DNA of 64,000 bases from Nannocystis punicea (GTDB taxonomy: Bacteria > Myxococcota_A > Polyangia > Nannocystales > Nannocystaceae): NCBI RefSeq assembly GCF_026965555.1, contig NZ_CP114040.1:11982001-12046000 (forward strand), given 5' to 3'. The position numbers and the translations under genes were made by a program. Below the pieces are notes generated by a model. That model searched no databases and had not been told where the DNA came from. It saw nothing but the letters and a program-made list of their open reading frames with translations. Within the stretch, counting starts at the first letter, position 1; the number at the start of each line of letters is the position of its first letter. Shown here one piece after another: positions 15,208 through 62,961 of the stretch.

Positions 15208-15253
15208 GCTGTTTAAAAGGACATGACCTCGACGACATGTCTTCAATTACAGC
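15208..15253. repeat. Palindrome ladder downstream of a lipoprotein gene
   Basis: Nodes GCTG (15208), CATG (15222), CATG (15236) and CAGC (15250) are spaced exactly 14 bases apart. It begins one base after the stop of the plus-strand lipoprotein and lies between two convergent genes. A transcription-terminating role is possible, but the stems here are weak. Confidence 0.6.
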
Positions 15254-16574: not shown

Positions 16575-17340
16575 GGCGGCGATGGTAGCGGGCCGCCAGG
16601 CGCGGCGCGAGGGCCCCGCCGGCCCGCCGGCGTGGCGCTCGCGGTGGAGCTTCGCCGCGCTCGCGTCGAGATCCGGCGGGGCCGCTCGCGGTCACGAGGA
16701 TGTTCCTGGCTCCTTCGCGTGCGAGAGGTACACTGCGTCGCCGACACGGCTGAGCTCGCTGGCAAACGCGCGCCCACGACCTCCGGACATCCTGATGATC
16801 ATCCGGGGTTTTGACCAGTCCTCATTTTCCCGGCGCAGAACCTGGGTGCGCTCGGCGTCCGCCGCCACACGAGAGGCCCGCGCGACTTCACTGGTTTGGC
16901 GGGTGTGCGACCAGGGTATGAGACAGCGTTCGCACAAGGAAGCGGCGCGAGGGCGCCGCGACCTCTGCAGCCGCGCGTGCTCCCCGCCGACGCACAAGAC
17001 CTCGATCTCGCGGCAGAGCGACCGTCTCGTGCTGCATGACGCGCTTTCGTCGAGCGCCGACGTCGTCGCACGGACATCCGCGTTCGTCGGCCGGACCACG
17101 TTCAATGTCTGTTCACACATGTTCCGTTAGACATGTAGTCGACTACGCCCAACAATTGTGCTGATGATAACACGGTATGTACGATGATACGCGCAACACA
17201 CCGACTCGGCGCGGAAGCGACCGCGTAGGCGCTTGCGCGATCGCAGGGAGCGCTGTTCACCAATCGCGGGGGGCTGGTCAGCACGTAGCGGGGTAAGTAC
17301 CCTGGTTTGTGGCCCGCCCGACGGGTCGAAAGCGGCTCCC
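16575..17340. other. Long spacer upstream of the PAS-STAS gene
   Basis: 766 bases. Open frames on both strands (for example 16692-17120) have arginine-rich compositions with no domain and are not accepted. The last 240 bases are clearly A/T-richer than the surroundings, with stretches such as caacaattgtgctgatgata (near 17150), so the promoter of the gene at 17341 probably lies there. A palindrome ladder occupies 17104-17135. Confidence 0.5.
17104..17135. repeat. Intergenic palindrome ladder
   Basis: Nodes AATG (17104), CATG (17118) and CATG (17132), each followed by ten bases, lie at the junction between GC-rich and A/T-richer spacer DNA about 200 bases upstream of the PAS-STAS gene. Confidence 0.6.
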
Positions 17341-21786: not shown

Positions 21787-21846
21787 TCTGTCCTTCACGA
21801 CATGTTCCTTCGGAAATGTCGTGAAAGACATGCCTTTTAAGGCATG
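21787..21846. terminator. Double hairpin (palindrome ladder) between convergent genes
   Basis: Five nodes spaced 14 bases apart (21787 TCTG, 21801 CATG, 21815 AATG, 21829 CATG, 21843 CATG). They form a large hairpin, ttcacgacat (21794-21803) with atgtcgtgaa (21816-21825), and a second one, catgcctt/aaggcatg (21829-21836 with 21839-21846). It sits between the stop of the NRPS-like gene (21781) and the stop of pyrC (21848), so it is well placed as a bidirectional terminator. Confidence 0.65.
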
Positions 21847-21847
21847 C

Positions 21848-22909
21848 TCAATCGACCAGGCGCCAGGCGACCTGCTCGCCGGCGCGCAGCGGGACGAGGT
21901 CGTCCTGGCCGAAGGGATAGCTGGCCGGCACCTCCCAGGCGACCCGCTCGAGCCGGACCTTCTCGCGGTTGACCGGCAGGTCGTAGAAGCGCGGGCCGAA
22001 CTCGCCGGCGAACGCGTTCAGCCGCTCCAGCGCCCCGGCGCGCTCGAACGCCTCGGCGTACAGCTCGATCGCCGCGTGGGCGGTGAACATCCCGGCGCAG
22101 CCGCAGGCGCTCTCCTTGGCCCGGCGCGGGTGCGGGGCGCTGTCGGTGCCGAGGAAGAACTTCGGCTCGCCGCTGGTCGCGGCCTCGACCAGGGCCTCGC
22201 GGTGGAGCTCGCGCTTGAGCACCGGCAGGCAGTAGTAGTGCGGGCAGATGCCGCCGGTGAACATGGCGTTGCGGCTGTAGAGCAGGTGGTGCGCGGTGAT
22301 CGTGGCGGCCACGCGCGGGCCGGCGGCGCGCACGAAGGCGACCGCGTCGCGGGTAGTGATGTGCTCGACGACCACGCGCAGGTCGGGCAGGCGGTCGAGC
22401 AGCGGCGCGAGCTGACGCTGCAGGAACACCGCCTCGCGGTCGAACACGTCGACGCTCGGGTCGGTGACCTCGCCGTGCACGAGCAGCGGCAGGCCGAGCT
22501 GCTGCATGGCCTCGAGGACAGGGAACACGCGCGCCAGGTCGGTCACCCCCGACTGCGAATTGGTGGTCGCGCCGGCCGGGTACAGCTTGACCCCGTGCAC
22601 GAACCCGCTGCTGCGGGCGCGGGCGACCTCCTCCGGCGGCGTCGCGTCGGTCAGGTAGAGCGTCATCAGCGGCGTGAACCGCCCGGCCAGCGCCGTCGGC
22701 ACCGCCGCGACGATCCGCTCGCGGTAGGCCGCCGCGTCCGCGACCCGCGTGACCGGCGGGCGCAGGTTGGGCATGACGATCGCCCGCGCGAACTGCCGCG
22801 CGGTGTGGGCCACCGCGTCGGCGAGGACGACGCCGTCGCGCAGGTGGAGGTGCCAGTCGTCGGGGCGGACAAGCTCGAGCGCGTCGGTCACGGCGCCGAC
22901 AAGTAGCAC
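21848..22909 (-). CDS. pyrC: Dihydroorotase (pyrimidine biosynthesis)
   Basis: About 350 residues, the usual size for the homodimeric (type II) enzyme. Metal and substrate motifs are visible: DDWHLHLRDG near the start, VMPNLRPPV, GVKLYPAGATTNS with the carboxylated Lys, LLVHGEV, VVEHITT, TAHHLLYSRN and FFLGTDSAPHP with the catalytic Asp. It converts carbamoyl aspartate to dihydroorotate in the third step of UMP synthesis. The GTG at 22909 is used; a GTG at 22891 (VTDALELVRPDDW) matches the usual N-terminus equally well, and neither has a clear ribosome site. No other pyr genes are nearby. Confidence 0.95.
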   Translation of the reverse strand: MLLVGAVTDALELVRPDDWHLHLRDGVVLADAVAHTARQFARAIVMPNLRPPVTRVADAAAYRERIVAAVPTALAGRFTPLMTLYLTDATPPEEVARARSSGFVHGVKLYPAGATTNSQSGVTDLARVFPVLEAMQQLGLPLLVHGEVTDPSVDVFDREAVFLQRQLAPLLDRLPDLRVVVEHITTRDAVAFVRAAGPRVAATITAHHLLYSRNAMFTGGICPHYYCLPVLKRELHREALVEAATSGEPKFFLGTDSAPHPRRAKESACGCAGMFTAHAAIELYAEAFERAGALERLNAFAGEFGPRFYDLPVNREKVRLERVAWEVPASYPFGQDDLVPLRAGEQVAWRLVD

Positions 22910-27868: not shown

Positions 27869-28807
27869 ATGGCGGCCAGGGCAATCTGGGAAGGAACCAT
27901 CGGCTTCGGCCTCGTGCAGATCCCCGTCGGGCTTTATTCGGCCGAATCGAGGGACGAGCTCAATTTCGACATGCTCGATCGACGCGACATGTCGCCCGTC
28001 GGGTACCAGCGGTACAACCGCGAGACCGGCGAGCCCGTCGATTGGGACGACATCGTCAAGGGCTACGCGGTCAAGAAGGGCGAGTACGTGATCGTCGAGC
28101 CCGAGGACTTCAAGCGGGCCAGCGTCAAGGCGACCCAGACCGTGGACATCGTCCAGTTCGCCGACGCCGACGAGATCGACCCGACCTACTTCGAGAAGCC
28201 GTACTACCTGGTCCCGGGCAAGCGCGGCGCCAAGCCGTACGTGCTGCTGCGCGAGGCGCTGCGCAAGGCGAACAAGGTGGGCATCGCCCGCGTCGTCATC
28301 CGCACGCGCGAGAGCCTGGCGGCGGTGATGGTCAAGGGCGACGCCCTCGTGCTCGAGCTGCTGCGCTTCGCCCACGAGCTCCACGCGGTCGAGGACTTCG
28401 ACCTGCCGCGCGGCAAGGACGCGCCCAAGGTGTCCGCGCCCGAGCTCAAGATGGCCGAGCGGCTCATCGACGAGATGACCGCGAAGTTCGAGCCCGAGGA
28501 GTTCAAGGACACTTACCGCGACGACCTCCTGGACTTCATCAAGCGCAAGTGGAAGGGCGAGGAGGTCGAGGAGGTCGACGTCGAGGCCGAGGCGCCGGCC
28601 ACCAACGTGGTCGACATGATGGCGCTGCTGAAGAAGAGCCTCACGCACGGCAAGGGGGGCGCGGCCGCCGACGCCGACAAGCAGAAGAACAAGCCCAAGC
28701 GCACCGCGGCCCGTAACCCGCGCCCGGCGCGGGCCAAGAAGGCCGCGACCACCAACCGCAAGAAGCCGGCCAAGCGCGCCAAGACGACCCGGCGAAAGGC
28801 GGCCTGA
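27869..28807 (+). CDS. ku: Ku DNA end-binding protein (NHEJ)
   Basis: 312 residues. The start ARAIWEGTIGFGLVQIPVGLY is diagnostic of bacterial Ku, followed by VGYQRYNRETGEPVDWDDIVKGY, the beta-barrel segment DEIDPTYFEKPYYLVPGKRG and the conserved FKDTYRDDLLDFIKRK. The protein forms a homodimeric ring on double-strand ends and recruits LigD. The last 45 residues are a Lys/Arg/Ala-rich tail (KKAATTNRKKPAKRAK), typical of extended Ku forms that bind DNA more tightly. The stop overlaps the ligD start by one base (TGATG), so Ku and LigD are made together. Confidence 0.97.
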   Translation: MAARAIWEGTIGFGLVQIPVGLYSAESRDELNFDMLDRRDMSPVGYQRYNRETGEPVDWDDIVKGYAVKKGEYVIVEPEDFKRASVKATQTVDIVQFADADEIDPTYFEKPYYLVPGKRGAKPYVLLREALRKANKVGIARVVIRTRESLAAVMVKGDALVLELLRFAHELHAVEDFDLPRGKDAPKVSAPELKMAERLIDEMTAKFEPEEFKDTYRDDLLDFIKRKWKGEEVEEVDVEAEAPATNVVDMMALLKKSLTHGKGGAAADADKQKNKPKRTAARNPRPARAKKAATTNRKKPAKRAKTTRRKAA

Positions 28808-31626
28808 TGTCGCTCGCGCGCTACCACCAGAAGCGGGACTTCGCCCGCACCCCGGAGCCGCGCGGAAAGTCGCCCAGGAGCCGCTCCCAGGGCGAATTCA
28901 TCATTCACAAGCACGCCGCGCGGCGGCTGCACTACGACCTGCGGCTCGAGCTCGACGGCGTGCTCAAGAGCTGGGCGGTGCCCAAGGGCCCGAGCCTCGA
29001 CCCACACGACAAGCGGCTCGCGGTCCACGTCGAGGACCACCCGCTCGAGTACGGCAAGTTCGAGGGCACCATCCCGCAGGGCGAGTACGGCGGCGGCTCC
29101 GTGGTCCTGTGGGACCGCGGCCACTGGTACCCCGAGGGCGACGCCCGCGCCGACTACCGCGCCGGCAAGCTCAAGTTCCGCCTCGACGGCCACAAGCTCC
29201 ACGGCGCCTACACCCTCGTGCGCATGCACGGCCGGCGCGACGACGATCACGACAATTGGCTGCTGATCAAGGAAGACGACGAGGAGGCCAGCGACGACGG
29301 CGAGGCCCTCGTGCGCGACCAGCCCGAGAGCATCGTCAGCGGCCGCACCGTCGAGGAGATCGCCGCCGGCGTGCCGGCCAGGAAGAAGAAGGCCGCCCGC
29401 AAGACCACCAACAAGCAGGCCGCCGACAAGCCGAGCAACAGCAAGGCCCGCCGCTCCGCGGCCAACAAGCCGGCCCGCAACGACGCCGCCAACGCGGCCG
29501 TCAAGTCGACCGCCAGGACCGCCGGCAAGAAGAACAAGAAAGCCGCGACCAAGAAGGCCGCGACCAAGAAGGCCGCGACCAAGAAGGCCGCGCCCAAGAA
29601 GGCCGCGACCAAGAAGGCCGCGCCCAAGAAAGCCGCGCCCAAGAAGGCCGCCAAGAAGGCGACGAGCAAGAAAGCCGCCGCCAAGAAGACCACCAGGCGC
29701 CCGCGCGCCGCCAGGAAGAAATCCAGCAAGCGCGCGACCGCTGCCAAGAAATCGACGCCCGAGCGCCCGCTCCCGGCCCGGGTCGCGCCGGAGCTGGCCA
29801 CCCTGGTGGAAAAAGTCCCGCCCGGCGACGATTGGTGCCACGAGATCAAGTTCGACGGTTATCGCCTGCTCGTCCGCCTCGACGGTGACGACATTCGCCT
29901 GATCACCCGCGGCGAGCAGGACTGGACCGAGCGGCTCGCGCCGCTGGCCAAATCACTGCAGCAGCGGCTCGGCGAGCGCCGCCTCCTCGTCGACGGCGAG
30001 CTCGTGCACGTCGACGAGGACGGCCTCACCCACTTCGGTCCGCTGCAGGCCGCCTTGGCCGAGGATCGCACCGGCGAGCTCGTGTTCTACGCGTTCGACC
30101 TGCTGAACCTCGACGGCCACGACCTGCGGCCCTTGCCGCTGCTCGAGCGCAAGGAGCTGCTGGCCGAGCTGCTCCCGCCCGAGGACGCCCCCGGCCGCGT
30201 GCGCCTGTCGGAGCACATCGTCGGCGGCGGCGAGGAGCTGCTCGCGCGCGCCTGCTCGCTCGGCCTCGAGGGCATCCTCTCCAAGCGCGCCGACGCCCCC
30301 TATCGCAGCGGCCGCACCCGCGACTGGCTGAAGATCAAGTGCGGCCGCCGGCAGGAGGTCGTCATCGGCGGCTACGCGACCGCGCGCAGCGGCCCGCGGG
30401 CGCTCGGCGCCCTGCTGGTCGGCGTGTTCGACGACGACGGCGCCCTGCAGTACGCCGGCAAGGTCGGCACCGGCTTCGACTTCGCCGAGGCCGCCCGCCT
30501 CAAGAAGCTGCTGAGCGAGCGCGAGGCCTCGCGCTCCCCGTTCGCGAAGCGCCTGCCGACCGGCCTCGGCGACACTCACTTCGTCCGCCCCGACCTCGTG
30601 GCGGAGGTCCGCTTCGGCGAGTGGACCAGCGACGGTCGCATGCGGCACCCGGTCTACGAGGGCCTGCGCGAGGACAAGCGGCCCAGGCAGGTCCACCGCG
30701 AGGTCCCGGCCGCGACCCCGGCCGCGGGCGCGGCCCAGGTGCTCGGCGTCCCGCTGTCGAACCCGGGCCGCGTGCTGTGGCCCGACGACAAGATCACCAA
30801 GCGCGACCTCGCCGAGTACTACGCCGAGATCGTCGACTGGATCCTCCCGCACGTCGTCGACCGCCCGCTCAGCCTGGTCCGCTGCCCCGACGGGCTCGGC
30901 AAGCCGTGCTTCTTCCAGCGTCATTTGCGGCACGACCTGCCGGAGGGCATCTCGACGCTCGAGATCGAGGGCGACGACGAGCCGGGCTACGTCTACGTCC
31001 GCGACGAGCGCGGCCTGATCGGCCTGGCGCAGATCGGCGCGCTCGAGCTGCACGCCTGGGGCGCCACCGTCGCCGACCCCGACGGCCCCGACCGCATGGT
31101 CCTCGACCTCGACCCCGCCGAGGATGTCCCATGGGACATGGTCAAAGGCGCAGCCAGGGCCATGCGCGAGCGCCTGGCCCAGCTCGACCTCGACAGCTTT
31201 TTGAAGACGACCGGCGGCAAGGGCCTGCACGTCGTCGTGCCGCTGACCGCCGGTCGCCAGACCTGGGCCGACGTCAAGGCGTTCGCCCGCGGGATCGCCC
31301 GCGAGTTCGCCCTCGCCGACCCCGAGCACTTCGTCGACGTCGCCGCCAAGCACAAGCGCCGCGGCAAGATCTACGTCGACTACCTCCGCAACGACCGCGG
31401 CGCCACCAGCGTGGCCGCCTACTCGCCGCGGGCCCGCCCCGGGGCCACGGTGTCCGTCCCGCTGCGCTGGACCGAGCTGGCCGGCCTGACCGATCCGCGG
31501 GCCTACGACCTCGACAGCACCGTCGCCCGCCTCGCCAAGCTGCGCGGCGACCCGTGGCGCGAGCTGACGCGCGTCCGCCAGTCGCTGACCGCCGCCCGCC
31601 TACGCGAGGTGTCCGGAAAGACATGA
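28807..31626 (+). CDS. ligD: Multifunctional ATP-dependent DNA ligase LigD (PE-LIG-POL)
   Basis: 939 residues with three enzyme domains. Residues 30-180: 3'-phosphoesterase (HKHAARRLHYDLRLELDG, HVEDHPLEYGKFEGTIP, GEYGGGSVVLWD). Residues about 190-320: a Lys/Ala-rich linker of repeated KKAATKKAAPKKA units, similar to histone H1 tails. Residues about 320-630: ATP-dependent ligase with nucleophile Lys in EIKFDGYRLLV and the motif LEGILSKRADAPY. Residues about 645-930: primase-polymerase (LSNPGRVLWPDDKITKRDLA, MVLDLDPAED, TGGKGLHVVVPL). It repairs ends held by Ku. Domain order follows the Pseudomonas, not the mycobacterial, arrangement. A perfect TGTCC CATG GGACA palindrome lies within the POL domain codons (31125-31138). 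Confidence 0.97.
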   Translation: MSLARYHQKRDFARTPEPRGKSPRSRSQGEFIIHKHAARRLHYDLRLELDGVLKSWAVPKGPSLDPHDKRLAVHVEDHPLEYGKFEGTIPQGEYGGGSVVLWDRGHWYPEGDARADYRAGKLKFRLDGHKLHGAYTLVRMHGRRDDDHDNWLLIKEDDEEASDDGEALVRDQPESIVSGRTVEEIAAGVPARKKKAARKTTNKQAADKPSNSKARRSAANKPARNDAANAAVKSTARTAGKKNKKAATKKAATKKAATKKAAPKKAATKKAAPKKAAPKKAAKKATSKKAAAKKTTRRPRAARKKSSKRATAAKKSTPERPLPARVAPELATLVEKVPPGDDWCHEIKFDGYRLLVRLDGDDIRLITRGEQDWTERLAPLAKSLQQRLGERRLLVDGELVHVDEDGLTHFGPLQAALAEDRTGELVFYAFDLLNLDGHDLRPLPLLERKELLAELLPPEDAPGRVRLSEHIVGGGEELLARACSLGLEGILSKRADAPYRSGRTRDWLKIKCGRRQEVVIGGYATARSGPRALGALLVGVFDDDGALQYAGKVGTGFDFAEAARLKKLLSEREASRSPFAKRLPTGLGDTHFVRPDLVAEVRFGEWTSDGRMRHPVYEGLREDKRPRQVHREVPAATPAAGAAQVLGVPLSNPGRVLWPDDKITKRDLAEYYAEIVDWILPHVVDRPLSLVRCPDGLGKPCFFQRHLRHDLPEGISTLEIEGDDEPGYVYVRDERGLIGLAQIGALELHAWGATVADPDGPDRMVLDLDPAEDVPWDMVKGAARAMRERLAQLDLDSFLKTTGGKGLHVVVPLTAGRQTWADVKAFARGIAREFALADPEHFVDVAAKHKRRGKIYVDYLRNDRGATSVAAYSPRARPGATVSVPLRWTELAGLTDPRAYDLDSTVARLAKLRGDPWRELTRVRQSLTAARLREVSGKT

Positions 31627-31653
31627 TCTTCAGGACATGACCAAAAGAACATT
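31608..31653. repeat. Palindrome ladder across the ligD stop codon
   Basis: Nodes GGTG (31608), CATG (31622), CATG (31636) and CATT (31650) are 14 bases apart. The ladder starts in the last ligD codons, spans the TGA and runs into the spacer, so it supplies the final residues SGKT. Confidence 0.65.
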
Positions 31654-32236: not shown

Positions 32237-33511
32237 ATGCGCCTCGCTGTCCCGAAGTTCCAGTTCCGCTTCGTGCCCTCGCTCGGCCACGTCATCCACC
32301 CCGGCAACTTCCACCCGGTCGGCGTCCAGCGCTCGGCCGAAGCGCTGGTCGACCGCGCGGCCGCCAGCGGGCTCGCTGGCCCCGGCGGCGAGCCCGGCGC
32401 CTGGCTCGTGGTCGGCGGCTCGGGCGGCTTCGGCAGCGCGGCGCGTGTGGTCTTGGGGACATGTCTCGGAGCACATACGCTGAACGTCTCCTACGATCCG
32501 GCGCCGCAGCCCGAGAGCTCCAACAAGCTGCGCAAGATCGGCTCGCCCGGGTTCCACCGCACTCTGGCGATCGAGCGGCGCCTGCGGGAGCGCGGTACGG
32601 TCGCCCGCACGGTGCTCGGCGACGCCTTCGACCCGGCCGTGCTCGCGGCCGCGATCGCGGAGGTCCGCCAGCACTTCGGCGGCAAGCTGAACGGCCTCGT
32701 GTGGGCGCTCGCGGCCCCGCGGGCGACCGACCCGCGCACCGGCAAGCCGGTCCAGAGCGCGCTCAAGCCGCTCGGCAAGCCGGCCACCGTGCGCACCTTC
32801 AGCGGCCGCGGCGAGACCCCCGAGGACGGGCCGAAGCTGGTCGAGCTCGAGCTGCCGCCGGGCAGCCCCGAGGAGGCGGTGGCGACCCAGTTCGTCATGG
32901 GCGGGCGGATCGTCGAGCAGTGGATCGACGCCCTGCTGCAGCACGACCTGCTGGCGCCCGGCTTCACCCTGGCGACCATCTCGTACCGCGGCAACCCGCT
33001 CAACGCCGCCGTCTACCGCAACGGCCTGATCGGCCTCGCCAAGGCCGACCTCGAGTTCTACACCCGAGCCATCGACGCGGTCCTGCGCGCGCGCGTCGGC
33101 GGCCGGGCGGTCGCCGTCGAGGGCCCCGCCGTCGTCACCGAGGCCTCGGGCGGGATCCCCGGCGTCCCCTATTACATGGCCCTCGTCCGCGACGTCCTCG
33201 GCGACCGCTTCGAGGACCCGCTCGCCTCCATGCTCCGCCTGTTCCGCGACAAGCTCCCCGCCGGCGGCGAGCCCGTGGTCGACGCCGAGGGCCTGGTCCG
33301 CCTCGACGACGTCGAGCTCGACGAGGCCGTGCAGGCCGAGCTCTCCCGCCGCTTCTTCGCCGGCAAGCCCGGCGACCCGTTCGACCCCGAGCTCTACCAG
33401 CGCTTCATGGACGAGTACGCCCGCACCCGCGGCTTCTGCATCGACGGCGTCGACTACACCGCCGAGTTCGACACCGACGAGGTCTGCCGCACCGACGCGC
33501 CGGCTGCCTGA
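32237..33511 (+). CDS. FabV-like enoyl-ACP/trans-2-enoyl-CoA reductase, divergent
   Basis: 424 residues from ATG at 32237 (MRLAVPKFQFRFVPSLGHV). The frame stays open upstream, but the leader is arginine-rich and unlike the family. FabV signatures are present in altered form: VIHPGNFHPVG for the N-terminal HPxGC region, VVGGSGGFGSAARV for the NADH-binding loop, LVWALAAPRATDPRTGKPVQ followed by SALKPLGKP, and a Tyr-x8-Lys active site in YRNGLIGLAK. The reaction would be NAD(P)H reduction of a trans-2-enoyl thioester in fatty acid synthesis. The missing Cys in HPxGC and the altered cofactor loop make this a divergent member, and its carrier (ACP or CoA) is uncertain. Confidence 0.82.
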   Translation: MRLAVPKFQFRFVPSLGHVIHPGNFHPVGVQRSAEALVDRAAASGLAGPGGEPGAWLVVGGSGGFGSAARVVLGTCLGAHTLNVSYDPAPQPESSNKLRKIGSPGFHRTLAIERRLRERGTVARTVLGDAFDPAVLAAAIAEVRQHFGGKLNGLVWALAAPRATDPRTGKPVQSALKPLGKPATVRTFSGRGETPEDGPKLVELELPPGSPEEAVATQFVMGGRIVEQWIDALLQHDLLAPGFTLATISYRGNPLNAAVYRNGLIGLAKADLEFYTRAIDAVLRARVGGRAVAVEGPAVVTEASGGIPGVPYYMALVRDVLGDRFEDPLASMLRLFRDKLPAGGEPVVDAEGLVRLDDVELDEAVQAELSRRFFAGKPGDPFDPELYQRFMDEYARTRGFCIDGVDYTAEFDTDEVCRTDAPAA

Positions 33512-33576
33512 TCGGGCATGCCCGCTCGGGCATGTGTCAAAGGGCATGCTCGAAAGAGCATGCTCTTTTGTTTATA
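33503..33576 (+). terminator. Palindrome ladder ending in a rho-independent terminator
   Basis: Six nodes are exactly 14 bases apart: GCTG 33503, CATG 33517, 33531, 33545 and 33559, and TATA 33573. Three inter-node units pair perfectly but with different stem bases (cccgctcggg; ctcgaaagag). The hairpin GCATGCTC-GAAA-GAGCATGC (33544-33563) followed by tcttttgttt is a standard intrinsic terminator for the FabV-like gene, whose stop lies inside the ladder. Confidence 0.75.
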
Positions 33577-33655: not shown

Positions 33656-33735
33656 GCTCGTCGCCTCTCGACTCGTCGCCTCTCGACTCGTCGCCTCTCG
33701 AGCCGCTCGTCCCCTCTCGCGCCGCTCGTCGCCTC
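33656..33735. repeat. 15-bp tandem repeats
   Basis: Direct repeats of tcgcctctcgactcg (about 15 bp, four to five imperfect copies) lie in the 413-base spacer before the RlmI-like gene. Nothing else is recognised in this spacer besides the ladder at its left end. Confidence 0.75.
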
Positions 33736-33924
33736 TCCAGCGACTCACTGCCCCGCCCGCCCCTCGCCGCCGCCGGCCCACGCCCCTCAAAAAGGACCGT
33801 CGCCCTGCGAGCGCTTCGCGCCGCGCTGCCCGCCTGCCCTCGAGGCCACGTCGGCTCACGTCGCTGTCTCACGCGCACCCCGACCCGGGTGCAGGCGCGC
33901 GAGATCGCGTAACCTCCGTCTCGC

Positions 33925-35109
33925 GTGCCCGCCGTCCTCGTCCCCGATCGCCTCACCCGCCACGTCGCAGCCGGTCATCCGTGGCTGTACGTCGACGCCG
34001 TCCCCGAGGTCGTCGGCGCCCGCACCGGCGACCTCGTCACCCTGCTCGGCCAGGGTCGGCGGCCGATCGGTCACGCCCTGTTCGACGCCGACTCGCCGAT
34101 CGCCCTCCGCGTGGTCGCCACGCGCAAGGACGAGCACCCCGGCCCTGCGTTGTGGCGGCGGCGCATCGAGGCCGCCTGGCGCCTGCGTCAGACCACCCTC
34201 GACCTCTCGGCCACCGACGCCTACCGCGTCCTGCACGGCGAGGGCGATCGCCTGCCCGGCGTCGTCGTCGACCTCTACGCCGGCTGCGCCGTGCTCAAGC
34301 TCGACACCCCCGCCTGGCTGCCGCACCTGGGCGACCTCACCGAGGCGATCGTCGACGTCGTCCGCCCGCGCTCGCTGTGGTTCAAGGGTCTGAGCGGCCA
34401 GCGCGGCGGCGACGACGTGCCCGCGCAGCAGCGCCCGCGCGTGCTCGCGGGCGAGGAGCCGCCGCAGCGCGCGGAGATCCACGAGCACGGCATGCGCATG
34501 TACGTCGACGTCCGGCGCGGCCAGAAGACCGGCATGTTCCTCGACCAGCGCGAGAACCGGCGCCTCGTCCGTCAGGTCGCGCGTGGCCGCGAGACCCTCA
34601 ACCTGTTCTCGTACACCGGCGGCTTCTCCCTCGCCGCCGCCCTCGGCGGGGCCCCGCGCGTCACCAGCGTCGACCTCGCGCGCAACGCAGTCGACGCCGC
34701 CCGCGACAACTTCGTCGCCAACGACCTCGACCCCGCCGCCCACGCCTTCGTCGCCGCCGACGCCTTCGCCTTCCTCGAGGACACCGCCGGCGCCGCCTAC
34801 GACCTCGTCGTCGTCGACCCGCCCTCGTTCGCGCCCAACGCCCGGTCCGTGCGCGCCGCCGAGGCCGCCTACGCCCGCCTCAACGCCAGCGCCCTGCGCC
34901 AGGTCCGTCCCGGCGGCCTGCTGGCCGCCGCCAGTTGTTCGAGCCATGTCCCGATGGACATGTTTTTAAAAATTCTCGGCGAGTCGGCCCGCCAGGCCCG
35001 CCGCCCGCTGCGCCTGCTCGAGGTGCGAGGCGAACCGCCCGACCACCCGACCCCGCTGCACTTCCCCGAGGGCCGCTACCTCAAGTTCGTGCTCGCGCTG
35101 GCCGAGTGA
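33925..35109 (+). CDS. rlmI: SAM-dependent rRNA methyltransferase, RlmI/YccW-like
   Basis: 394 residues, GTG start at 33925. The N-terminal PUA-like region (HPWLYVDAVPEVVGARTGDLV; YRVLHGEGDRLPGVVVDLYAG) is followed by a Rossmann methyltransferase domain: GQKTGMFLDQRENRR, NLFSYTGGFSLAAALGG (SAM loop), VDLARNAVDAARDN, YDLVVVDPPSF (catalytic DPPSF) and AAASCSSHVPMDMF. This is the layout of enzymes making m5C in 23S rRNA. The SCSSH motif is directly followed by a perfect palindrome with an A/T-rich tail (tttttaaaaattctc), giving rare codons for MFLKIL. The exact methylated base cannot be read from sequence. Confidence 0.9.
   Translation: MPAVLVPDRLTRHVAAGHPWLYVDAVPEVVGARTGDLVTLLGQGRRPIGHALFDADSPIALRVVATRKDEHPGPALWRRRIEAAWRLRQTTLDLSATDAYRVLHGEGDRLPGVVVDLYAGCAVLKLDTPAWLPHLGDLTEAIVDVVRPRSLWFKGLSGQRGGDDVPAQQRPRVLAGEEPPQRAEIHEHGMRMYVDVRRGQKTGMFLDQRENRRLVRQVARGRETLNLFSYTGGFSLAAALGGAPRVTSVDLARNAVDAARDNFVANDLDPAAHAFVAADAFAFLEDTAGAAYDLVVVDPPSFAPNARSVRAAEAAYARLNASALRQVRPGGLLAAASCSSHVPMDMFLKILGESARQARRPLRLLEVRGEPPDHPTPLHFPEGRYLKFVLALAE
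34945..34972. repeat. Perfect TGTCC-N4-GGACA palindrome with A/T-rich tail in rlmI
   Basis: CATGTCC CGAT GGACATG (34945-34962) is a 7-bp perfect stem with a 4-base loop, followed by tttttaaaaa. It lies inside codons for HVPMDMFLK, with no extra residues compared with the usual spacing of this motif region in the family. Confidence 0.75.
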
Positions 35110-36608: not shown

Positions 36609-39600
36609 ATGTCGCCGCCGCGCGCCCTGGTCGAGCAGATCGCCGCCGCCCTCGACGCGGTCCTCCTCGCGCCGAGCCCCGAGCTGGTCCGCGCCGCCGA
36701 GCAGGACGGCGCCGCCGCCCACGCCGAGCTCCTCGCCCGCGCCCTGCTGTCTCTCCCGGCCGAGCACTTCTCCGAAGCTGTCCCTTCCGACCTGTCCTTT
36801 CCGTCGGCCGCGGAGCCGACCTCGGCGCCCGTCGAGCGACCGCCCGGCGCCTCACGCGACCTGTCCCTTCGGCCATCCTCGCACCTCACCGCCTCCGGCC
36901 CGGACCCTCCTGAGCCGGCGCCCGCTCCGCACGACCTGTCCCTTCTGCCATCTCCGCCCCTCGCGCCCTCCGGCCCCGACCCGCCCGCGCCCGCGCACGT
37001 CCCATTCGACCTGTCCCCTCGGACATCCTCGCTCCTCGCGCCCTCGGGCCCCGACCCGCCCGCGCCGCACGACCTGTCTCTTCAGCCATCTCTCGCCCCT
37101 TCGGAACCCGACCCGCCGGCGCACGCTCCGCCCGCCGCGCATGACCCGTCCCCTCGGACATCCTCGCTCCTCGGGCCCTCGGGCCCCGACCCGCCCGATT
37201 CGGCGCGTGACCCGCCCGCTCCGCGCGACCCGTCCTTTCGGCCATCTCCGCCTCTTGCAGCCCCAGGTCCGGACCCTCCCGCGTTGACGCCCGTCCCTCG
37301 CGACCTGTCCCTTCGGCCATCTCCACCATTCGCCTCCTCGGGCCCCGACCCGCCCGCTCGTCTCGAGCCCCCGGCCCCCGCCCCCCGCGTCGCGCCACCT
37401 GTCCCTCGGGACCTGTCCTCTCACACCTCCGATCTCCCGCCTGCGGCCCCGGAGCTGCTCCCCATCGAGGCGCTCGGCGAGGTCTACGCCGCCCTCGTGG
37501 GCCGCCGGATCGCCCGCATCGACCCGGGAGCCTTCCCGCTGCGCGACCTCCACGGCCGCACCACCTGGATCGCCTTGCCCGAGCTCCTCGCCGTCCCTGC
37601 GGCCTCGCGGGCGCACCACCTGCGCAGCCTCGGCTTCTCCCGCGAAGCAGCGCGGCGGTGCACCCGCGAGCTCGCCGACGTCACCGACGAGGCCGTCGCG
37701 CGCAGCGTCCTCGCGCGCGCGCGCGGCGACCCTCCCGGCCGCCCGGGTGACCTGGTCTTTCAGCCATGTCCCGATCGCCGCCGGGCCGGCGCCTACTACA
37801 CCCCGCGCCTCCTCGCGGACGCGGTCGTCCGCGCCACCCTGCGGCCCTTGCTCGCCGCGCTGGGCCCCGCGCCGACTCCCGACGACCTGCTCCGGCTGAA
37901 GCTCTGCGACCCTGCCATGGGCTGCGGCGTGTTCCTCCTCGCCGTCGTCCGCCGGCTCGCCGCCCACCTCGTCGACGCCTGGGCCCGCGCTGGCCTCGTC
38001 TTGCCCGATCGGCACCGCCGCGCCCGCCGGCTCGTCGTCGAGCATTGCGTCTTCGGCGTCGACGCCGACCCCTTCGCCGTCGCCCTCGCCCGACGCTCGC
38101 TCTGGCTGCTCTTCGGGACAGGTGACCCGCCGCCGGAGTTCCTCGACAAAAGTCTCCGCCACGGCGACGCTCTCGTCGGTCTCGACCTCGACCGCCTGCG
38201 CGCCTTCCACTGGAAGCCTGGTCCGCCCCGGCCTGCGATCGCCGCTGCAGTCGCCCGCGCCCCTGGCCTCGCGGCCCGGCTCGGCGACCTCGTCGTCGGC
38301 GCCTTCCTGTCCCAGCGGACAGATCGGGACCGCGAACGCGAGCGCCGCCGCCGGCTCCTCGCCGTCGAGGCCGCGCTCGCGCGCAGCGAGGATCTACCCA
38401 CCTTCCCGGTCCCCGCCCCGCTCGCCCCGCCGCTGCACTGGCCGCTCGCCTTCCCGCACCTCTTTTCGGCCTTCGTCGGCAACCCCCCGTTCCTCGGCGG
38501 CAGCCAGATCTCCGGCGCCTTCGGCGAACCCTACCTCGCCTGGCTGCTCGCCCTCCACGCCGGCTCCCACGGCAACGCCGACCTGTGCGCCCACTTCCTC
38601 CGCCGCGTCGACGGCCTCCTCGCCGCCAGCGGCACGATCGGCTTCATCGCCACCAACACCATCGGCCAGGGCGACACGAGGACCACCGGCCTGCAGCCCC
38701 TGCTCGCCCGCGGCCACGTCCTCTACGACGTCACCCGCGACCTGCCCTGGCCGGAGGCCGCCGTCGTCACCGTGGCGCTCGTGCACCTCGCCCGCGGCGA
38801 CGCGGCAGCCGCAGCCCGGCCATACCAGCTGCGCGAGCCTGCTCCCGCCTCCGGACCCACGGCCGACCTGCCCGCCGCAGAGCCCAACCTGTCCCGAGGA
38901 CCATCTCCTCTCTCGGACCCCTCCGACTCTCTTCACCTGTCCCGAGAGCCATCTCCTCTCTCGGACCCCGCCGACTCTCTCGATATGTCCCGAGAGCCAT
39001 CTCCTCTCTCGGATCTCTCCGACCCCCCCGCCGCTCCTCTCTCGGACCCCTCAGCCTCGCCCAACCTGTCCCGCGAGCCATCTCCTCTCTCGGACCCCTC
39101 CGACTCTCTCGACCTGTCCCGAGAGCCATCTCGTCTCTCAGGCCCATCCAACCCCCTCGCCGTCTCTCGCAACACCTCAAATCTCTCCGACCCAGCCGCC
39201 ACTCACGACCTGTCCCGCGGGACATCTAATCTCTCGAGCTCCTCCGACCTCCCCGCTCTCTCGCCACACCGCTCCCGAGAACCCTCCCCCTCGATCCCCC
39301 CGGACGAGACACTCGACTGGCCCCCGCGCACCCACGTGACCCGGCTCGTCCCCGCCCTCTCCTCGCGCCTCCATACCGGCCACGAGCTGCCCGATCCGCG
39401 CCCGCTGGCGGCGAACAGCCGGATCGGCTTCGCCGGCAGCAAGGTCTACGGCCAGGGCTTTCTCCTCACCGCCGGGGAGCGTTCCGCCCTGGTGACTCGC
39501 GACCCGCGCAACGCCTCGCGGATCTTCCCGTACCTCGGGGGTGACGACATCAATCGCGGAGGCGGTCCGCGGCGCTTCGTCATCAACTTCGGCGCCTGCA

Positions 39601-40298
39601 GCCTCGCCGAGGCCGAGGCGTACCCGGAGCTTTTGGCCCTCGTGCGCGAGCGCGTCAAGCCGGAGCGCGACCGCAACCCCCGCGAGTTTCGCCGCCGGCA
39701 CTGGTGGCGCTTCGGCGAGCCCGCGCCCGGCCTCTATTCGGCGCTCCGCGGCCTCGATCGGTGTGTCGTCAATTCGCAGGTCGGCAAACACCTCGTCTTC
39801 GACCTCGCGACCACCGACTATGTCTATAGCCATACCACGTACGTCTACGCCAGCCCTGCCCCGCTCAGCCTGTTCGCCGTGCTGCAATCGCGGGTGCACG
39901 AGGTCTGGGCCCGCCGCCTCGCCTCGTCGATGAAGACCGACCTGCGCTACTCGATCGCCGATTGCTTCCACACCTTCCCGTTCCCCTCGCCCGGCCCCCG
40001 CCTCGACACCCCCGCGCTCGCCTCGCTGGCCCTGCGGCTGCTCGGCGCGCGTGCAGCCGCCCTCGCGAGCGCCCCCCGCACCCTCACGAGCCTCTACAAC
40101 GACCTCCAGGGCCCGCGCCGCGAGCCGCACCTCGACGCGCTGCGGGCCGCCCACGACGACCTCGACCGCGCGGTGCTGGGCGCCTACCCGTGGAGCGACC
40201 TGCGACTGCCCCCATGGCCGCAGCCGCTGGCGGGCGAGCCCGTCGCCGCCGAGCTGTTCGACCGCCTCCTCGCCCTCAACGCCGCCGCAGCCCGCTGA
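36609..40298 (+). CDS. Orphan N6-adenine DNA methyltransferase (Eco57I/MmeI-like) with two repeat-derived insertions
   Basis: 1229 residues. Residues 1-55 are helical; residues about 56-275 are Pro/Ser-rich low complexity; about 280-380 match the pre-methylase region (LGEVYAALVGRRIARIDPG, RAGAYYTPRLLADAVV). Motif I DPAMGCGVFLLAVVR starts at Asp434, motif IV NPPF at Asn625. A second Ser/Pro low-complexity block covers about 760-895 (repeats of LSREPSPLSDPSDS). A target-recognition region follows (SRIGFAGSKVYGQGFLL; LQSRVHEVWARRLASSMK; DCFHTFPFPSP), typical of MmeI/Type IIG enzymes. No nuclease domain, helicase or restriction partner is visible, so it probably methylates without cutting. Both insertions are built from the iterated palindrome of this window. 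Possible BREX/DISARM ancestry is not supported by neighbours. Confidence 0.87.
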   Translation: MSPPRALVEQIAAALDAVLLAPSPELVRAAEQDGAAAHAELLARALLSLPAEHFSEAVPSDLSFPSAAEPTSAPVERPPGASRDLSLRPSSHLTASGPDPPEPAPAPHDLSLLPSPPLAPSGPDPPAPAHVPFDLSPRTSSLLAPSGPDPPAPHDLSLQPSLAPSEPDPPAHAPPAAHDPSPRTSSLLGPSGPDPPDSARDPPAPRDPSFRPSPPLAAPGPDPPALTPVPRDLSLRPSPPFASSGPDPPARLEPPAPAPRVAPPVPRDLSSHTSDLPPAAPELLPIEALGEVYAALVGRRIARIDPGAFPLRDLHGRTTWIALPELLAVPAASRAHHLRSLGFSREAARRCTRELADVTDEAVARSVLARARGDPPGRPGDLVFQPCPDRRRAGAYYTPRLLADAVVRATLRPLLAALGPAPTPDDLLRLKLCDPAMGCGVFLLAVVRRLAAHLVDAWARAGLVLPDRHRRARRLVVEHCVFGVDADPFAVALARRSLWLLFGTGDPPPEFLDKSLRHGDALVGLDLDRLRAFHWKPGPPRPAIAAAVARAPGLAARLGDLVVGAFLSQRTDRDRERERRRRLLAVEAALARSEDLPTFPVPAPLAPPLHWPLAFPHLFSAFVGNPPFLGGSQISGAFGEPYLAWLLALHAGSHGNADLCAHFLRRVDGLLAASGTIGFIATNTIGQGDTRTTGLQPLLARGHVLYDVTRDLPWPEAAVVTVALVHLARGDAAAAARPYQLREPAPASGPTADLPAAEPNLSRGPSPLSDPSDSLHLSREPSPLSDPADSLDMSREPSPLSDLSDPPAAPLSDPSASPNLSREPSPLSDPSDSLDLSREPSRLSGPSNPLAVSRNTSNLSDPAATHDLSRGTSNLSSSSDLPALSPHRSREPSPSIPPDETLDWPPRTHVTRLVPALSSRLHTGHELPDPRPLAANSRIGFAGSKVYGQGFLLTAGERSALVTRDPRNASRIFPYLGGDDINRGGGPRRFVINFGACSLAEAEAYPELLALVRERVKPERDRNPREFRRRHWWRFGEPAPGLYSALRGLDRCVVNSQVGKHLVFDLATTDYVYSHTTYVYASPAPLSLFAVLQSRVHEVWARRLASSMKTDLRYSIADCFHTFPFPSPGPRLDTPALASLALRLLGARAAALASAPRTLTSLYNDLQGPRREPHLDALRAAHDDLDRAVLGAYPWSDLRLPPWPQPLAGEPVAAELFDRLLALNAAAAR
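36777..37430. repeat. First palindrome-derived expansion in the methylase gene
   Basis: About nine CCTG/CCCG-N10-CANN units spaced roughly 60-85 bases apart, each encoding a version of RDLSLRPS or DLSPRTS between PSGPDPPAP linkers. The unit at 37012-37025 is a perfect TGTCC CCTC GGACA. The first (36777) and last (37398) members are two-step ladders. Confidence 0.8.
38888..39300. repeat. Second palindrome-derived expansion in the methylase gene
   Basis: Tandem units of about 48 bases built on cctgtcccgagagccatctc followed by ctctcggacccctccgactc, coding for LSREPSPLSDPSDS. Most copies keep CCTG-N10-CATC; the copy at 39211-39224 is a perfect TGTCC CGCG GGACA. A single unit at 38308-38321 (TGTCC CAGC GGACA) lies between the two expansions. 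Confidence 0.85.
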
Positions 40299-41175: not shown

Positions 41176-41973
41176 TCACCTGCCGTGCTTGTCGATCGCG
41201 GCCGTCCAGTGGGCGATGTCTTCGCGGGACATCCAGTGCTCTTCGAGCCGCGCATCGGCCAGCTCCCAGCGGTCGATGTCGGTGAGGTATTGCTGTCTCG
41301 AGAGCAATGTCCCTTTGCACATGCTCTTTTGAACATCATTGTCGTGGCGCAGGCGGCCGAGCAGGTGGGCCATCACCCGCCTGGGGATCTTGCCCTGCTC
41401 GCCGGGGTAGATGAAGCCGAACAGGATCAGGTGCGACAGCAGCACGCGGAAGTGGTCGCCGAAGCGATCGACCAGGCGCGGCCAGTCGAGCACGTCGGCG
41501 CAGGCGCGCAGGACGTGGGCCACGTCGGCGCCGTCGAAGCGCTCGCGCTCCATGATGAACGCCTTGCTCCACACCATCTCCTCGGGCGGCACCAGCAGCA
41601 CGTCCTGCTCGAGCACCACGTCGCGGCGGGCGTGGTCGAACCACCCCCTGTCGACGCGGGCGACCGCGTTGCCGGAGCTGAAGATGACGTCGACGAAGTC
41701 CTCGCCGCAGTGGGCCTTGCCGAGCCAGTGCGGGAACGTCAGGTCGCAGTTGTAGCCCTCGGCCTCCAGCACCTCGAGCGTGCGCTCCGCGTCCTCGGGC
41801 AGCACGAAGATGTCGAGGTCCTTGGTGTGGCGCTCGATGCCCGTGTAGCGGGCGAAGGCATAGGCCCCGCCGACCATGAAGGGCACCTGCGCCGCCGTCA
41901 GCGCGGTCATCGTGCGGACGTAGAACGTCCGGGCCTGCGGGTCCACGAAGTCGGTCAAGCGCGCCTCCGTCAT
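41176..41973 (-). CDS. Nucleotidyltransferase-fold protein
   Basis: 265 residues from ATG at 41973 (MTEARLTDFVDPQARTFYVR). The N-terminal part carries the pol-beta-type fold signature VPFMVGGAYAFARYTGIERH followed by TKDLDIFVLPED, where the Asp-x-Asp of KDLDIF is the metal site, plus FVDVIFSSG as a third acidic strand. Similar proteins are annotated as nucleotidyltransferase family or AbiEii-like, but no paired antitoxin is present here. The target, a nucleotide or an RNA/protein acceptor, is unknown. The coding region near its end (HDNDVQKSMCKGTLLSRQ) is written by a palindrome ladder at 41292-41337. Confidence 0.85.
   Translation of the reverse strand: MTEARLTDFVDPQARTFYVRTMTALTAAQVPFMVGGAYAFARYTGIERHTKDLDIFVLPEDAERTLEVLEAEGYNCDLTFPHWLGKAHCGEDFVDVIFSSGNAVARVDRGWFDHARRDVVLEQDVLLVPPEEMVWSKAFIMERERFDGADVAHVLRACADVLDWPRLVDRFGDHFRVLLSHLILFGFIYPGEQGKIPRRVMAHLLGRLRHDNDVQKSMCKGTLLSRQQYLTDIDRWELADARLEEHWMSREDIAHWTAAIDKHGR
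41292..41337. repeat. Palindrome ladder in the nucleotidyltransferase gene
   Basis: Nodes GCTG (41292), AATG (41306), CATG (41320) and CATC (41334) are 14 bases apart, inside the reading frame near its 3' end. Its ctcttttgaa unit is A/T-rich for this genome. Confidence 0.65.
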
Positions 41974-45476: not shown

Positions 45477-47005
45477 CCCCACCCGACACCCCTCGCTTCT
45501 CGCCGCGGGTCGCCCCCGCGCCGGTCATCCCGCACCTCGGGCGGCTCGAGCTCGACCCGCGGCTCGTCGTCCGCAGCTTCGACGCCGGCTTCGCCGCGAT
45601 CGCGGGCGAGCGCGCCGACGAGGTCCTCGGGCGCCCGCTCGACGCCCTCTTCAGCGTCCGCGACCGCCGCGGGATCCTCCGCTTCGACGAGCTCATCAGC
45701 CACAGTAACGCCGACCACATCGACCTCCACATCGACCTCCGCCTCGGCGGCCGCGACGTCCTCGCCCGCCTCCTGCTCTCGCGCACCGAGGTCGGCTGGC
45801 TCGCCTTCATCGAGGACCTCGGCGGCGCCGGCAACCTCGTCCACGAGCTGGCCCAGAGCCGCGAGCTGTGGCGCGAGGTCGTGCATCAATCGGCGGAGGG
45901 CGTCGCGGTGCTCGGCGGCGACGGCAAGCTGCTCGAGTACAACCCCGCCTTCTTTCGCCTGCTCGACCTCCGCTCGACCCGCAACATCGCCCTGAGCGAG
46001 GAGGCAGTGCGCGGCGCGGCCCTGGTCGACCTCCTGATCGACGACTCGCTCGCCCCCTTGCGCGACCGCCTCGCCGGCCGCCCGGGGCTCGGCCGGGAGC
46101 TGCAGCACCGCGGCCGCTGGCTCGAGTTCGCCGCCCGCCCGCTGGCCCTGCCGCGCCAGCGGTTCGCCGGCGTGTGGCTGTCGCTGCGCGACATCACCGA
46201 GCGGCGCCGGGCCGAGCGCCTGCGGGCCGCCCTCGACGCCGCGCGCGAGGAGCTCCTGCGCAAGGAGAAGCTGGCCGCGCTCGGCGGCCTCGTCGACGGC
46301 ATCGCCCACGAGATCGGCAACCCGCTCGGCGTCGCGGTCACCGCCGCCAGCCTCGCCCAGGACCAGCTGCGCGAGCTCCAGGCCTCGTTCGAGGCCGGCA
46401 TCCTGCGCCAGCGCGACATGCGGCACCACCTGCAGCAGGCGCTCACCGCCGCCGAGATGGCGCTCGCCAACCTGCGCCGCGCCGCCACCCTCGTCGCCGG
46501 CGTCAAGCAGATCGCCGTCGACAGTTCGGAACAGGTCCGACAGGACATGTCCGTAGGGACATTCGTCGGCGCCGTCGTCGCCAGCCTGAGCCCGCTGACC
46601 GCCTGCACCCCGCACCGGGTCTGCGTCGACGTCCGCGCCGACCCGGTCGTCTCGGGCTTCCCGGCCGCGCTCGGGCAGATCGTCACCAGCCTCGTGCACA
46701 ACGCCCTGACCCACGCCTTCCCTGCGGGCCGGCCCGGCCGCATCGTGGTGTGGGTCGACCAGGTCGCCGGCGACCTGATCGAGCTCGGCTGCCGCGACGA
46801 CGGCATCGGCATGACCCCCGCCGTCTTGCCGCGCATCTACGAGCCCTTCTTCACCACCGCGCGCGACCACGGCAGCGGCCTCGGCCTCTACATCGTCCAC
46901 AACCTCGTCACCGACCTGCTGCGCGGCACCATCGCCGCCCGCGCCGCGCCCGAGCGCGGCACCACCGTCATCGTCCGCTTCCCCGCGCGCCCCGGAGACC
47001 CATGA
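45473..47005 (+). CDS. PAS histidine kinase, paralogue of the upstream kinase
   Basis: 510 residues. The N-terminal half carries two PAS-like modules (residues 15-120, LDPRLVVRSFDAGFAAIAGE; and 135-260, SAEGVAVLGGDGKLLEYNPAFF ... WLSLRDITERRRAE). HisKA His279 is in GLVDGIAHEIGNPLG; the ATPase boxes are VHNALTHAF, RDDGIGM, YEPFFTT and HGSGLGLYIVHN. Soluble. At residues about 353-364 (SEQVRQDMSVGT) two palindrome units rewrite the codons at a position where the paralogue at 44280 has the same length but no palindrome. Probable partner is the response regulator encoded next, whose start overlaps by 4 bp. Confidence 0.93.
   Translation: MTPPDTPRFSPRVAPAPVIPHLGRLELDPRLVVRSFDAGFAAIAGERADEVLGRPLDALFSVRDRRGILRFDELISHSNADHIDLHIDLRLGGRDVLARLLLSRTEVGWLAFIEDLGGAGNLVHELAQSRELWREVVHQSAEGVAVLGGDGKLLEYNPAFFRLLDLRSTRNIALSEEAVRGAALVDLLIDDSLAPLRDRLAGRPGLGRELQHRGRWLEFAARPLALPRQRFAGVWLSLRDITERRRAERLRAALDAAREELLRKEKLAALGGLVDGIAHEIGNPLGVAVTAASLAQDQLRELQASFEAGILRQRDMRHHLQQALTAAEMALANLRRAATLVAGVKQIAVDSSEQVRQDMSVGTFVGAVVASLSPLTACTPHRVCVDVRADPVVSGFPAALGQIVTSLVHNALTHAFPAGRPGRIVVWVDQVAGDLIELGCRDDGIGMTPAVLPRIYEPFFTTARDHGSGLGLYIVHNLVTDLLRGTIAARAAPERGTTVIVRFPARPGDP
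46532..46563. repeat. Palindrome ladder in the second histidine kinase gene
   Basis: Nodes CAGG (46532), CATG (46546) and CATT (46560). The second unit holds a perfect TGTCC GTAG GGACA core (46548-46561). Codons such as gta, aca and agt here are rare in the rest of the gene. Confidence 0.75.
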
Positions 47006-48306: not shown

Positions 48307-49058
48307 TCTTCGACGCCCACCTCCACGTCATCGATCCCCGCTTCCCGCTCGTCCCCAACCACGGCTGGCTGCCGGCGCCCTTCGATGTCCCGGAGTACAT
48401 GTCCCATGCGACAGCTCTCGACATTCGCGGCGGCGCCGTCGTCTCGGGCTCGTTCCAGGTCTTCGACCAGACGTACCTCGAGGACGCCCTCGCGCGCCTC
48501 GGCCCGACTTACGTCGGCGTCACCCAGCTGCCCGCCGACGTCGCCGACGCCGAGGTCCTGCGCCTGACCGCGCGCGGCGTCCGGGCCGTGCGCTTCAACC
48601 TCCGGCGCGGCGGCTCCGCCGACCTCGCCGACCTCGAGCCGCTGGCGCGCCGCGTCCACGACCTCGCCGGCTGGCACGTCGAGCTCTACGTCGATTCCGC
48701 CGACCTGCCCGACCTCGCCGCGCGCCTGCGTGCATTGCCGCGGGTCAGCATCGACCACCTCGGCCTGTCCGCCGCCGGCCTGCCGACCTTGCTCGCGCTG
48801 GTCGAGCGAGGCGTCCGCGTCAAGGCCACCGGCTTCGGCCGGGTCGACTTCGACGTCGCCGACGTCCTGCGCCGGATCGCCGCAGTCGACCCCGGCGCCC
48901 TGATGTTCGGCACCGACCTCCCCTCGACCCGCGCCCCCCGCCCCTTCACCCCCGCCGACATTCTTTTATTACAAGACGCGCTCGGCCCGGAGCTCGCCCG
49001 TCGCGCCCTGTGGGACAACGCGCTCGCCTGGTACCGCCCGCCCGCCTTCATCGAGTGA
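48303..49058 (+). CDS. Amidohydrolase (metal-dependent hydrolase of the PF04909 type)
   Basis: 251 residues from ATG at 48303, overlapping the response regulator stop (ATGA). Metal motif MIFDAHLHVIDPRFP at the start, then YVGVTQLPADV, GVRAVRFNLRRGG, HVELYVDSADLPDL, VSIDHLGLS and the final Asp in LMFGTDLPSTR. These fit TIM-barrel lactonases and decarboxylases related to 2-pyrone-4,6-dicarboxylate lactonase. Substrate unknown. Being the last gene of a signalling operon is unusual; it could process the signal that the kinases sense, which is speculation. Codons about 28-38 (DVPEYMSHATA) lie in a palindrome ladder at 48384-48415. Confidence 0.9.
   Translation: MIFDAHLHVIDPRFPLVPNHGWLPAPFDVPEYMSHATALDIRGGAVVSGSFQVFDQTYLEDALARLGPTYVGVTQLPADVADAEVLRLTARGVRAVRFNLRRGGSADLADLEPLARRVHDLAGWHVELYVDSADLPDLAARLRALPRVSIDHLGLSAAGLPTLLALVERGVRVKATGFGRVDFDVADVLRRIAAVDPGALMFGTDLPSTRAPRPFTPADILLLQDALGPELARRALWDNALAWYRPPAFIE
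48384..48415. repeat. Palindrome ladder in the amidohydrolase gene
   Basis: Nodes GATG (48384), CATG (48398) and CAGC (48412), 14 bases apart, within the reading frame near its 5' end. Confidence 0.6.
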
Positions 49059-54399: not shown

Positions 54400-54705
54400 C
54401 CCTGAGAACATGCTCCCAAGGACATCCCCGAGCGGACACCCGAGCCCGCTCCCGGCACGCACTCACGGTCGCAAGCCCGTCGCGGAGCGATCGGCTGTTC
54501 TATGCCCATGTTCGCCGTCGCGTCCGAATGCGTCGAGGACACGCCCGGACGGACACCCGAGTCCGCTCGCAGCGCGCGATCCCTCCCCGCCCCTGGCGAT
54601 CGCCTCGCCGCGATCCGCGGGCGCTCCGGAGCCTTGCGACGGCAAGAACATGCTCTCGAGGACATGCCCGAACAGACACCCGAATCCGCTCCGGATCCAG
54701 CCTGA
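54395..54705. repeat. Three ~122-bp tandem copies carrying palindrome ladders
   Basis: Copies at about 54402, 54528 and 54649 share a core like aggacatgcccgaacggaca followed by cccga(g/a)tccgctc. The first is a full ladder (CATG 54395, CATG 54409, CATC 54423, CACC 54437), each node 14 bases on. The repeats make up the 397-base gap between the Cys-rich protein and the TlpA-like gene. Confidence 0.7.
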
Positions 54706-61599: not shown

Positions 61600-61630
61600 C
61601 TGCTCCTCGGGACAGGTCCCCTGGGACAGG
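61599..61630. repeat. Palindrome ladder after the short peptide gene
   Basis: Nodes ACTG (61599), CAGG (61613) and CAGG (61627), 14 bases apart; the first overlaps the TAA stop. Units are ctcctcggga and tcccctggga. Confidence 0.6.
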
Positions 61631-62927: not shown

Positions 62928-62961
62928 GCCGCCGCGGCGCGCCGACCTCCGGCGAGTCTCC

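Follow-up and report, generated by a model that had tools for sequence, protein, structure and literature searches.

A rigid tandem of 14-bp dyads at gene ends and within coding sequences of Nannocystis

A ladder across the end of an enoyl reductase gene

The question raised by this locus is why a tetranucleotide should recur at exact 14-base steps across the end of a protein-coding gene. In the window (the 64,000-nucleotide stretch of Nannocystis punicea DNA that was analysed, bases 11,982,001-12,046,000 of a 13.2-Mb contig), a first-pass annotation had described a succession of nodes, GCTG-CATG-CATG-CATG-CATG-TATA, which we found at 33503, 33517, 33531, 33545, 33559 and 33573, exactly as stated. 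The gene 5' of this ladder has a Pfam Enoyl_reductase match, and the array begins before its stop codon and has CTCTTTTGTTTATA as its 3' terminus. Four of five other species carry arrays at the orthologous place, each with different units, and in the fifth the next gene lies close by. About 85 bases past the ladder, positions 33661-33740 hold imperfect tandem repeats of CTCGTCGCCTCTCG(A).

The same step had been claimed at eleven other positions, and all eleven coincide with arrays called by an independently trained model of the unit (those beginning at 8283, 15210, 17106, 21789, 31610, 41294, 46534, 48386, 54397, 61601 and 62959). The following arrays, none assigned to a strand, were recorded in the window:

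8283-8324, three units, at a gene edge
8746-8773, two units, within a DNA polymerase X-like gene
15210-15251, three units, intergenic
17106-17133, two units, intergenic
21789-21858, five units, located between two convergent genes, whose ends are at 21781 (+) and 21848 (-)
31125-31152, two units, within the LigD coding sequence
31610-31651, three units, spanning the LigD stop codon (31626)
32448-32475, two units, within the enoyl reductase coding sequence
33505-33574, five units (nodes 33503-33576), beginning before the enoyl reductase stop codon (33511)
34933-34974, three units, within the coding sequence of a methyltransferase (PUA_3/Methyltrans_SAM) whose protein alignments lack gaps in four species
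41294-41335, three units, within a nucleotidyltransferase-like gene, alignments gapless
46534-46561, two units, within a histidine kinase gene
48386-48413, two units, within an amidohydrolase gene
50175-50202, two units, within an ABC transporter gene
54397-54438, three units, directly after a stop at 54399
54637-54678, three units, outside the crude gene calls
61601-61628, two units with CAGG nodes, after a stop at 61599
62959-63014, four units, between convergent genes, with unit 3 the reverse complement of unit 1 and hence a 16-bp stem around unit 2

Among the other contents of the window are an end-joining repair pair at 27869-31626 (a Ku gene, then a three-domain LigD gene) and, at 37497-40298, an MmeI-like restriction-modification gene (MmeI_TRD and Eco57I methylase domains), ahead of which many single units of CCTGTCCC..GGCCATC lie at irregular spacing (36779-37427). 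Across the methyltransferase array, the ortholog from genome G004 is read in another frame (KLFEPCPDGHV versus SCSSHVPMDMF) before the common frame resumes, which reflects either a real frameshift pair or an assembly error.

The 14-base step across Nannocystis and its relatives

The 14-base ladder is real and lies far beyond chance. The autocorrelation of CATG positions peaks at 14 in the window (12 pairs against a median of about 1), and over 1.26 Mb of the N. punicea genome it yields 257 pairs at 14 bases, where the median is 13. Additional peaks appear at 28 and 42, and spacings of 13 or 15 show no enrichment. None of the 256 tetramers gave a stronger spacing signal over these 1.26 Mb than CATG at 14, and the genome-wide step proposed in the first-pass annotation is borne out by this peak. 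The pattern CATG-N10-CATG-N10-CATG occurs 1005 times in the 13.2-Mb Nannocystis genome, compared to once for the reversed pattern; it occurs 862-1666 times in five other core Nannocystis genomes (0-1 in the reversed control), 26 times in the relative G001, and 0-8 times in each other genus searched. Similarly, a scan of named genomes recovered four CATG at 14-bp steps repeatedly from Nannocystis contigs and generally once each from other taxa, and a strict two-unit dyad pattern sought in 379 Myxococcota genomes was present 624 times in the N. punicea genome and at most four times elsewhere.

Single strict sites (TGTCCN4GGACA) number 1341-2090 in core Nannocystis and 316 in G001, and are near chance outside Nannocystis, G001 and the sister genera g4 and g10. 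Each of the sister-genus genomes (G009 and G019 of g4, G015 and G023 of g10) has 85-147 single sites, far above the control, yet tandem arrays are nearly absent from them; the sister-genus DNA sample consisted of a few short loci. The presence of single sites in these genera indicates that the motif is older than the genus and was expanded within Nannocystis. When the unit model was applied to 2.86 Mb from five species, it returned 2266 arrays (about one per 1.1-1.4 kb), which extrapolates to roughly 10,000 arrays per genome, some 35-45% of them with at least two units. The longest array-free stretch in the 1.26 Mb of the N. punicea genome covers 16 kb (about 421,846-437,789 of contig C1) and is possibly recently acquired DNA.

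The repeat unit

We trained a two-state tandem model on intergenic DNA from a loose TG...CA dyad seed, with CATG not required. The repeat unit that emerged is not CATG but the 14-bp dyad TG-YCC-N4-GGR-CA (frequencies T.88, G.92, T.62, C.72, C.65, and the mirror of these), whose centre is AT-leaning, and the model supports the unit edge proposed in the first-pass annotation (N2TG/CAN2). An exactly abutting next unit follows with a probability of 0.46 after one unit and of 0.002 elsewhere, and arrays reach up to 7 units abutting at exactly 14 bp. CATG nodes thus appear because two units touch as CA and TG, and in coding DNA the nodes are often CCTG or CAGG instead. Bare TG and CA, an earlier description of the outer nodes, were dropped: Single units show CMTG and CAKG, and isolated units bear extra conserved flanks that extend them to about RCMTGYCCNNNNGGRCAKGY / RCMTGYCC-N4-GGRCAKGY.

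Arrays concentrate where genes end

Arrays were present in 54% of the intergenic regions between convergent genes, in 33% of those between codirectional genes and in 27% of those between divergent genes, with reversed controls at 4-6%. The corresponding densities were 9.0, 3.5 and 1.4 units per kb, compared to about 0.85 in genes (where the reversed control gave about 0.06). Ladders of at least two CATG outside genes numbered 130 in convergent, 130 in codirectional and 30 in divergent regions, for totals of 320, 905 and 389 such regions. Arrays peak within 60 nt 3' of stop codons, and those of at least five units are almost exclusively intergenic (54, versus 1 in genes). Because genes were called with a simple codon-model caller, gene starts are approximate; however, several array-carrying genes were confirmed by Pfam, and the presence of arrays inside Pfam-recognised genes rules out a strictly intergenic element. 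Within coding genes, arrays are distributed uniformly along the length, at a density of 0.21 per kb in core and 0.09 per kb in accessory genes (small numbers).

Gene-end arrays also recur after the same genes. For N. punicea genes with an array of at least two units no more than 120 nt from the stop codon, 72-94% of orthologs also have one, as opposed to 7-9% for genes without such an array (odds ratios 27-194). The N10 sequences of these orthologous arrays nevertheless differ widely: Position identity between orthologous units is 0.9 at TG/CA, a value partly set by the array-calling procedure, 0.6-0.7 in the half-sites and 0.5-0.58 in the centre.

Arrays inside genes are kept at the level of DNA

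Ortholog alignments across in-gene arrays were gapless in 210 of 226 cases, indicating that coding arrays arose by substitution and not by insertion. The arrays score 5.35 nats per unit in orthologs, compared to 0.03 after synonymous recoding of the same peptides. At informative sites of the arrays, rare codons are retained in 88% of cases, versus 37% outside arrays, and sites picked by score alone give 81% inside versus 37.5% outside. However, five symmetric decoy motifs gave 51-76% inside versus 40-50% outside, so that part of the raw excess is common to any selected site and the contrast of 88 with 37 overstates the effect. As an example, the three-unit array in HemE (uroporphyrinogen decarboxylase, URO-D) is identical or nearly so in six Nannocystis, and is absent at the same codons from all 22 of the other family orthologs compared (G001 and 21 from sister genera). 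The first-pass annotation had argued that a step of 14, not being a multiple of three, speaks against protein-level selection; in-gene arrays, conserved at synonymous sites, support this argument, and selection appears to act on DNA.

Alternatives to the proposed protein-bound array

In their density, placement and conservation, the arrays resemble the DNA uptake sequences (DUS) of Neisseria, making an uptake or recombination signal, i.e., a unit maintained and propagated within the genus through biased uptake or gene conversion and best tolerated at gene ends, the main rival explanation, although we consider it unlikely. Neisserial DUS occur about once per kb, in genes as well as at gene ends, and inverted pairs at the latter serve as terminators (PMC2397512). 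Like the DUS/USS of Neisseriaceae and Pasteurellaceae, the arrays are genus-specific, present in thousands of conserved copies both in genes and frequently at gene ends, and their spacing of 1.1-1.4 kb is close to the 1.1-1.5 kb of DUS (PMC2397512); their somewhat higher in-gene density in core genes, small as the numbers are, agrees with such a role. However, known uptake sequences are short, fixed, asymmetric words (DUS being a non-palindromic word of 10-12 nt that occurs singly or as an inverted pair), whereas the Nannocystis unit is a dyad with a free N4 centre, symmetric to transcription and repeated in a rigid 14-bp tandem that uptake does not lead one to expect. Homologous replacement should moreover homogenise the arrays, yet N10 varies widely between orthologous gene ends, and arrays are found in accessory genes too.

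It is more doubtful still that the arrays act as RNA, in the form of chained stem-loops that terminate transcription or stabilise the 3' ends of mRNAs. Their position 3' of stop codons and between convergent genes is consistent with such a function, as are the scarcity of hairpin-plus-T-tract terminators (in a crude scan, 22 of the 640 convergent ends and 22 of the 905 codirectional ones) and the strong folding of the 33503 ladder as RNA (z -6.2). According to the first-pass annotation, consecutive N10 units form perfect hairpins, and pairing and spacing are conserved rather than sequence. Perfect hairpins do occur in some units (24% have three perfect stem pairs) but are not the general rule, and although the spacing is indeed conserved, stem covariation is near zero and it is the sequence consensus that is maintained. 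Over 1217 intergenic units, stem pairs matched 0-4 points above expectation, with unpaired columns correlating as strongly, and there was no preference for G-U in stems (470 G-U versus 528 A-C); nor were GNRA and UNCG loops of intergenic units favoured over their complements. A z of 5.1 for one stem pair in an early small sample weakened with more data, and a small complementarity excess is present at the within-unit pairs 3-12, 5-10 and 6-9 (z 2.5-4.2).

Relative to the direction of the upstream gene, the motif shows no strand asymmetry, and orthologous units differ by 85 one-sided versus 9 compensatory changes. The covariation, G-U, loop and ortholog tests lead us to reject compensatory hairpins as the conserved feature; strand symmetry, the lack of G-U or loop bias and near-nil covariation instead mark this as a double-stranded DNA motif, and the conserved entity is a consensus sequence whose palindromy is incidental.

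Pairing nonetheless extends beyond the consensus at some gene ends. Relative to column-shuffled controls, arrays fold better in codirectional (z -8.4) and convergent (z -14.9) regions, whereas those in genes, many of them in mid-gene, fold no better (z +1.0). The likely cause is that units k and k+2 can be reverse complements, producing stems of at least 10 bp (10-22 bp) in about 22% of convergent arrays (e.g., 62959-63014), and it follows that some gene-end arrays probably also act as bidirectional hairpins. Each node had been proposed to pair with either neighbour, whereas pairing beyond the consensus is limited to this subset of gene-end arrays and joins units k and k+2 instead of neighbours. 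We detected no T enrichment 3' of arrays, which therefore differ from the G+C-rich hairpin and T run of an intrinsic terminator, and none of the curated family models of Rfam 15 matched in the 64-kb window.

That the words are a functionless product of repair or methylation bias is very improbable. Such a model has been proposed for highly iterated palindromes (PMC4390886), and CATG is a possible methylation site, but bias of this kind would not account for a 14-bp gapped dyad with variable nodes (CATG, CCTG, CAGG) in rigid tandem phase, with strong dependence on gene context and recurrence after the same genes. HIP1, the highly iterated palindrome GCGATCGC of cyanobacteria, is likewise a short palindrome of very high copy number, restricted in lineage and of unsettled function (PMC4390886), and the arrays share with it an abundance that extends over coding and non-coding DNA. 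HIP1 is, however, one fixed octamer, whereas the Nannocystis unit is a gapped dyad of 14-20 bp with a variable centre, concentrated at gene ends and, given its high probability of abutting, not dispersed singly.

Mobile palindromic repeats copied by a transposase (REP/BIME or MITE-like) share high copy number, palindromy and gene-end location with the arrays (PMC3733652) but are scarcely credible here, since 200 of the 207 units have distinct sequences and the gapless alignments of in-gene arrays largely refute insertion. REP/BIME are palindromes clustered between convergent and codirectional genes (PMC3733652), and arrays are likewise located at the 3' ends of genes and between convergent ones; REPs, though, are inserted, near-identical sequences tagged with GTAG or CGTC, in contrast to the untagged TGYCCN4GGRCA, of which coding copies arose by substitution. 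None of REP, DUS/USS and HIP1 fits, and the open-access papers that describe Nannocystis genomes or catalogue REPs make no mention of such a repeat.

Probable operator arrays in double-stranded DNA

Judging from the sequences, we think it probable that the ladders are double-stranded DNA operators arrayed in tandem, with one homodimer bound to each 14-bp unit: The consensus is dyad-symmetric and lacks the strand signature of an RNA. We infer the binding itself. Each unit would be the site of one homodimer of a putative lineage-specific DNA-binding protein, with dimers placed side by side every 14 bp and sharing the ACATGT node. Neighbouring dimers would touch, each turned by about 120 degrees, an arrangement that could impose the rigid 14-bp step, and three units would span about four helical turns, building a short protein filament. 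This filament may mark or insulate the boundaries of transcription units and/or organise the nucleoid, and where genes converge, some arrays may have been further shaped into long hairpins that aid the end of transcription.

Arrays favour gene boundaries and are sparse in divergent (promoter) regions, which suggests that the protein, once bound, would influence transcription or supercoiling at the places where units meet; their occurrence within genes speaks against an absolute roadblock. Counting against operators is the uniform distribution along coding genes, in which a strong roadblock would be expected to do harm. The better-than-shuffled folding of intergenic arrays implies that some are also shaped for pairing, contrary to a pure operator reading, and simple operator evolution does not predict the small complementarity excess within units. 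Conservation alone cannot separate selection from recombination-coupled drive.

FNR-type operators are 5-4-5 dyads (TTGAT-N4-ATCAA). The TGTCC-N4-GGACA unit has the same 5+4+5 geometry of half-sites and spacer, a likeness that we take as a lead. We know of no regulator family whose abutting sites number in the thousands per genome and lie both within genes and between them.

A possible second code in a bacterial genus

More tentatively, and with somewhat less than even confidence, we suggest that the arrays belong to a lineage-specific chromatin-like system, in which a DNA-binding protein would form short filaments of 14-bp pitch on about ten thousand arrays per chromosome, marking the ends of transcription units as well as points within genes, and in which selection on sites would override codon preference in conserved genes. 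The arrays would provide a concrete bait for finding the putative cognate protein, and the contrast between the roughly 100 single sites of g4 and g10 and the 1300-2100 of Nannocystis would make these genera a natural setting in which to study the origin of a genome-wide binding code. If this interpretation is right, it could explain how genes are delimited in these high-GC myxobacteria with few conventional terminators, and one bacterial genus would carry a second sequence code, at about one array per kb, that constrains both its intergenic and its protein-coding DNA.
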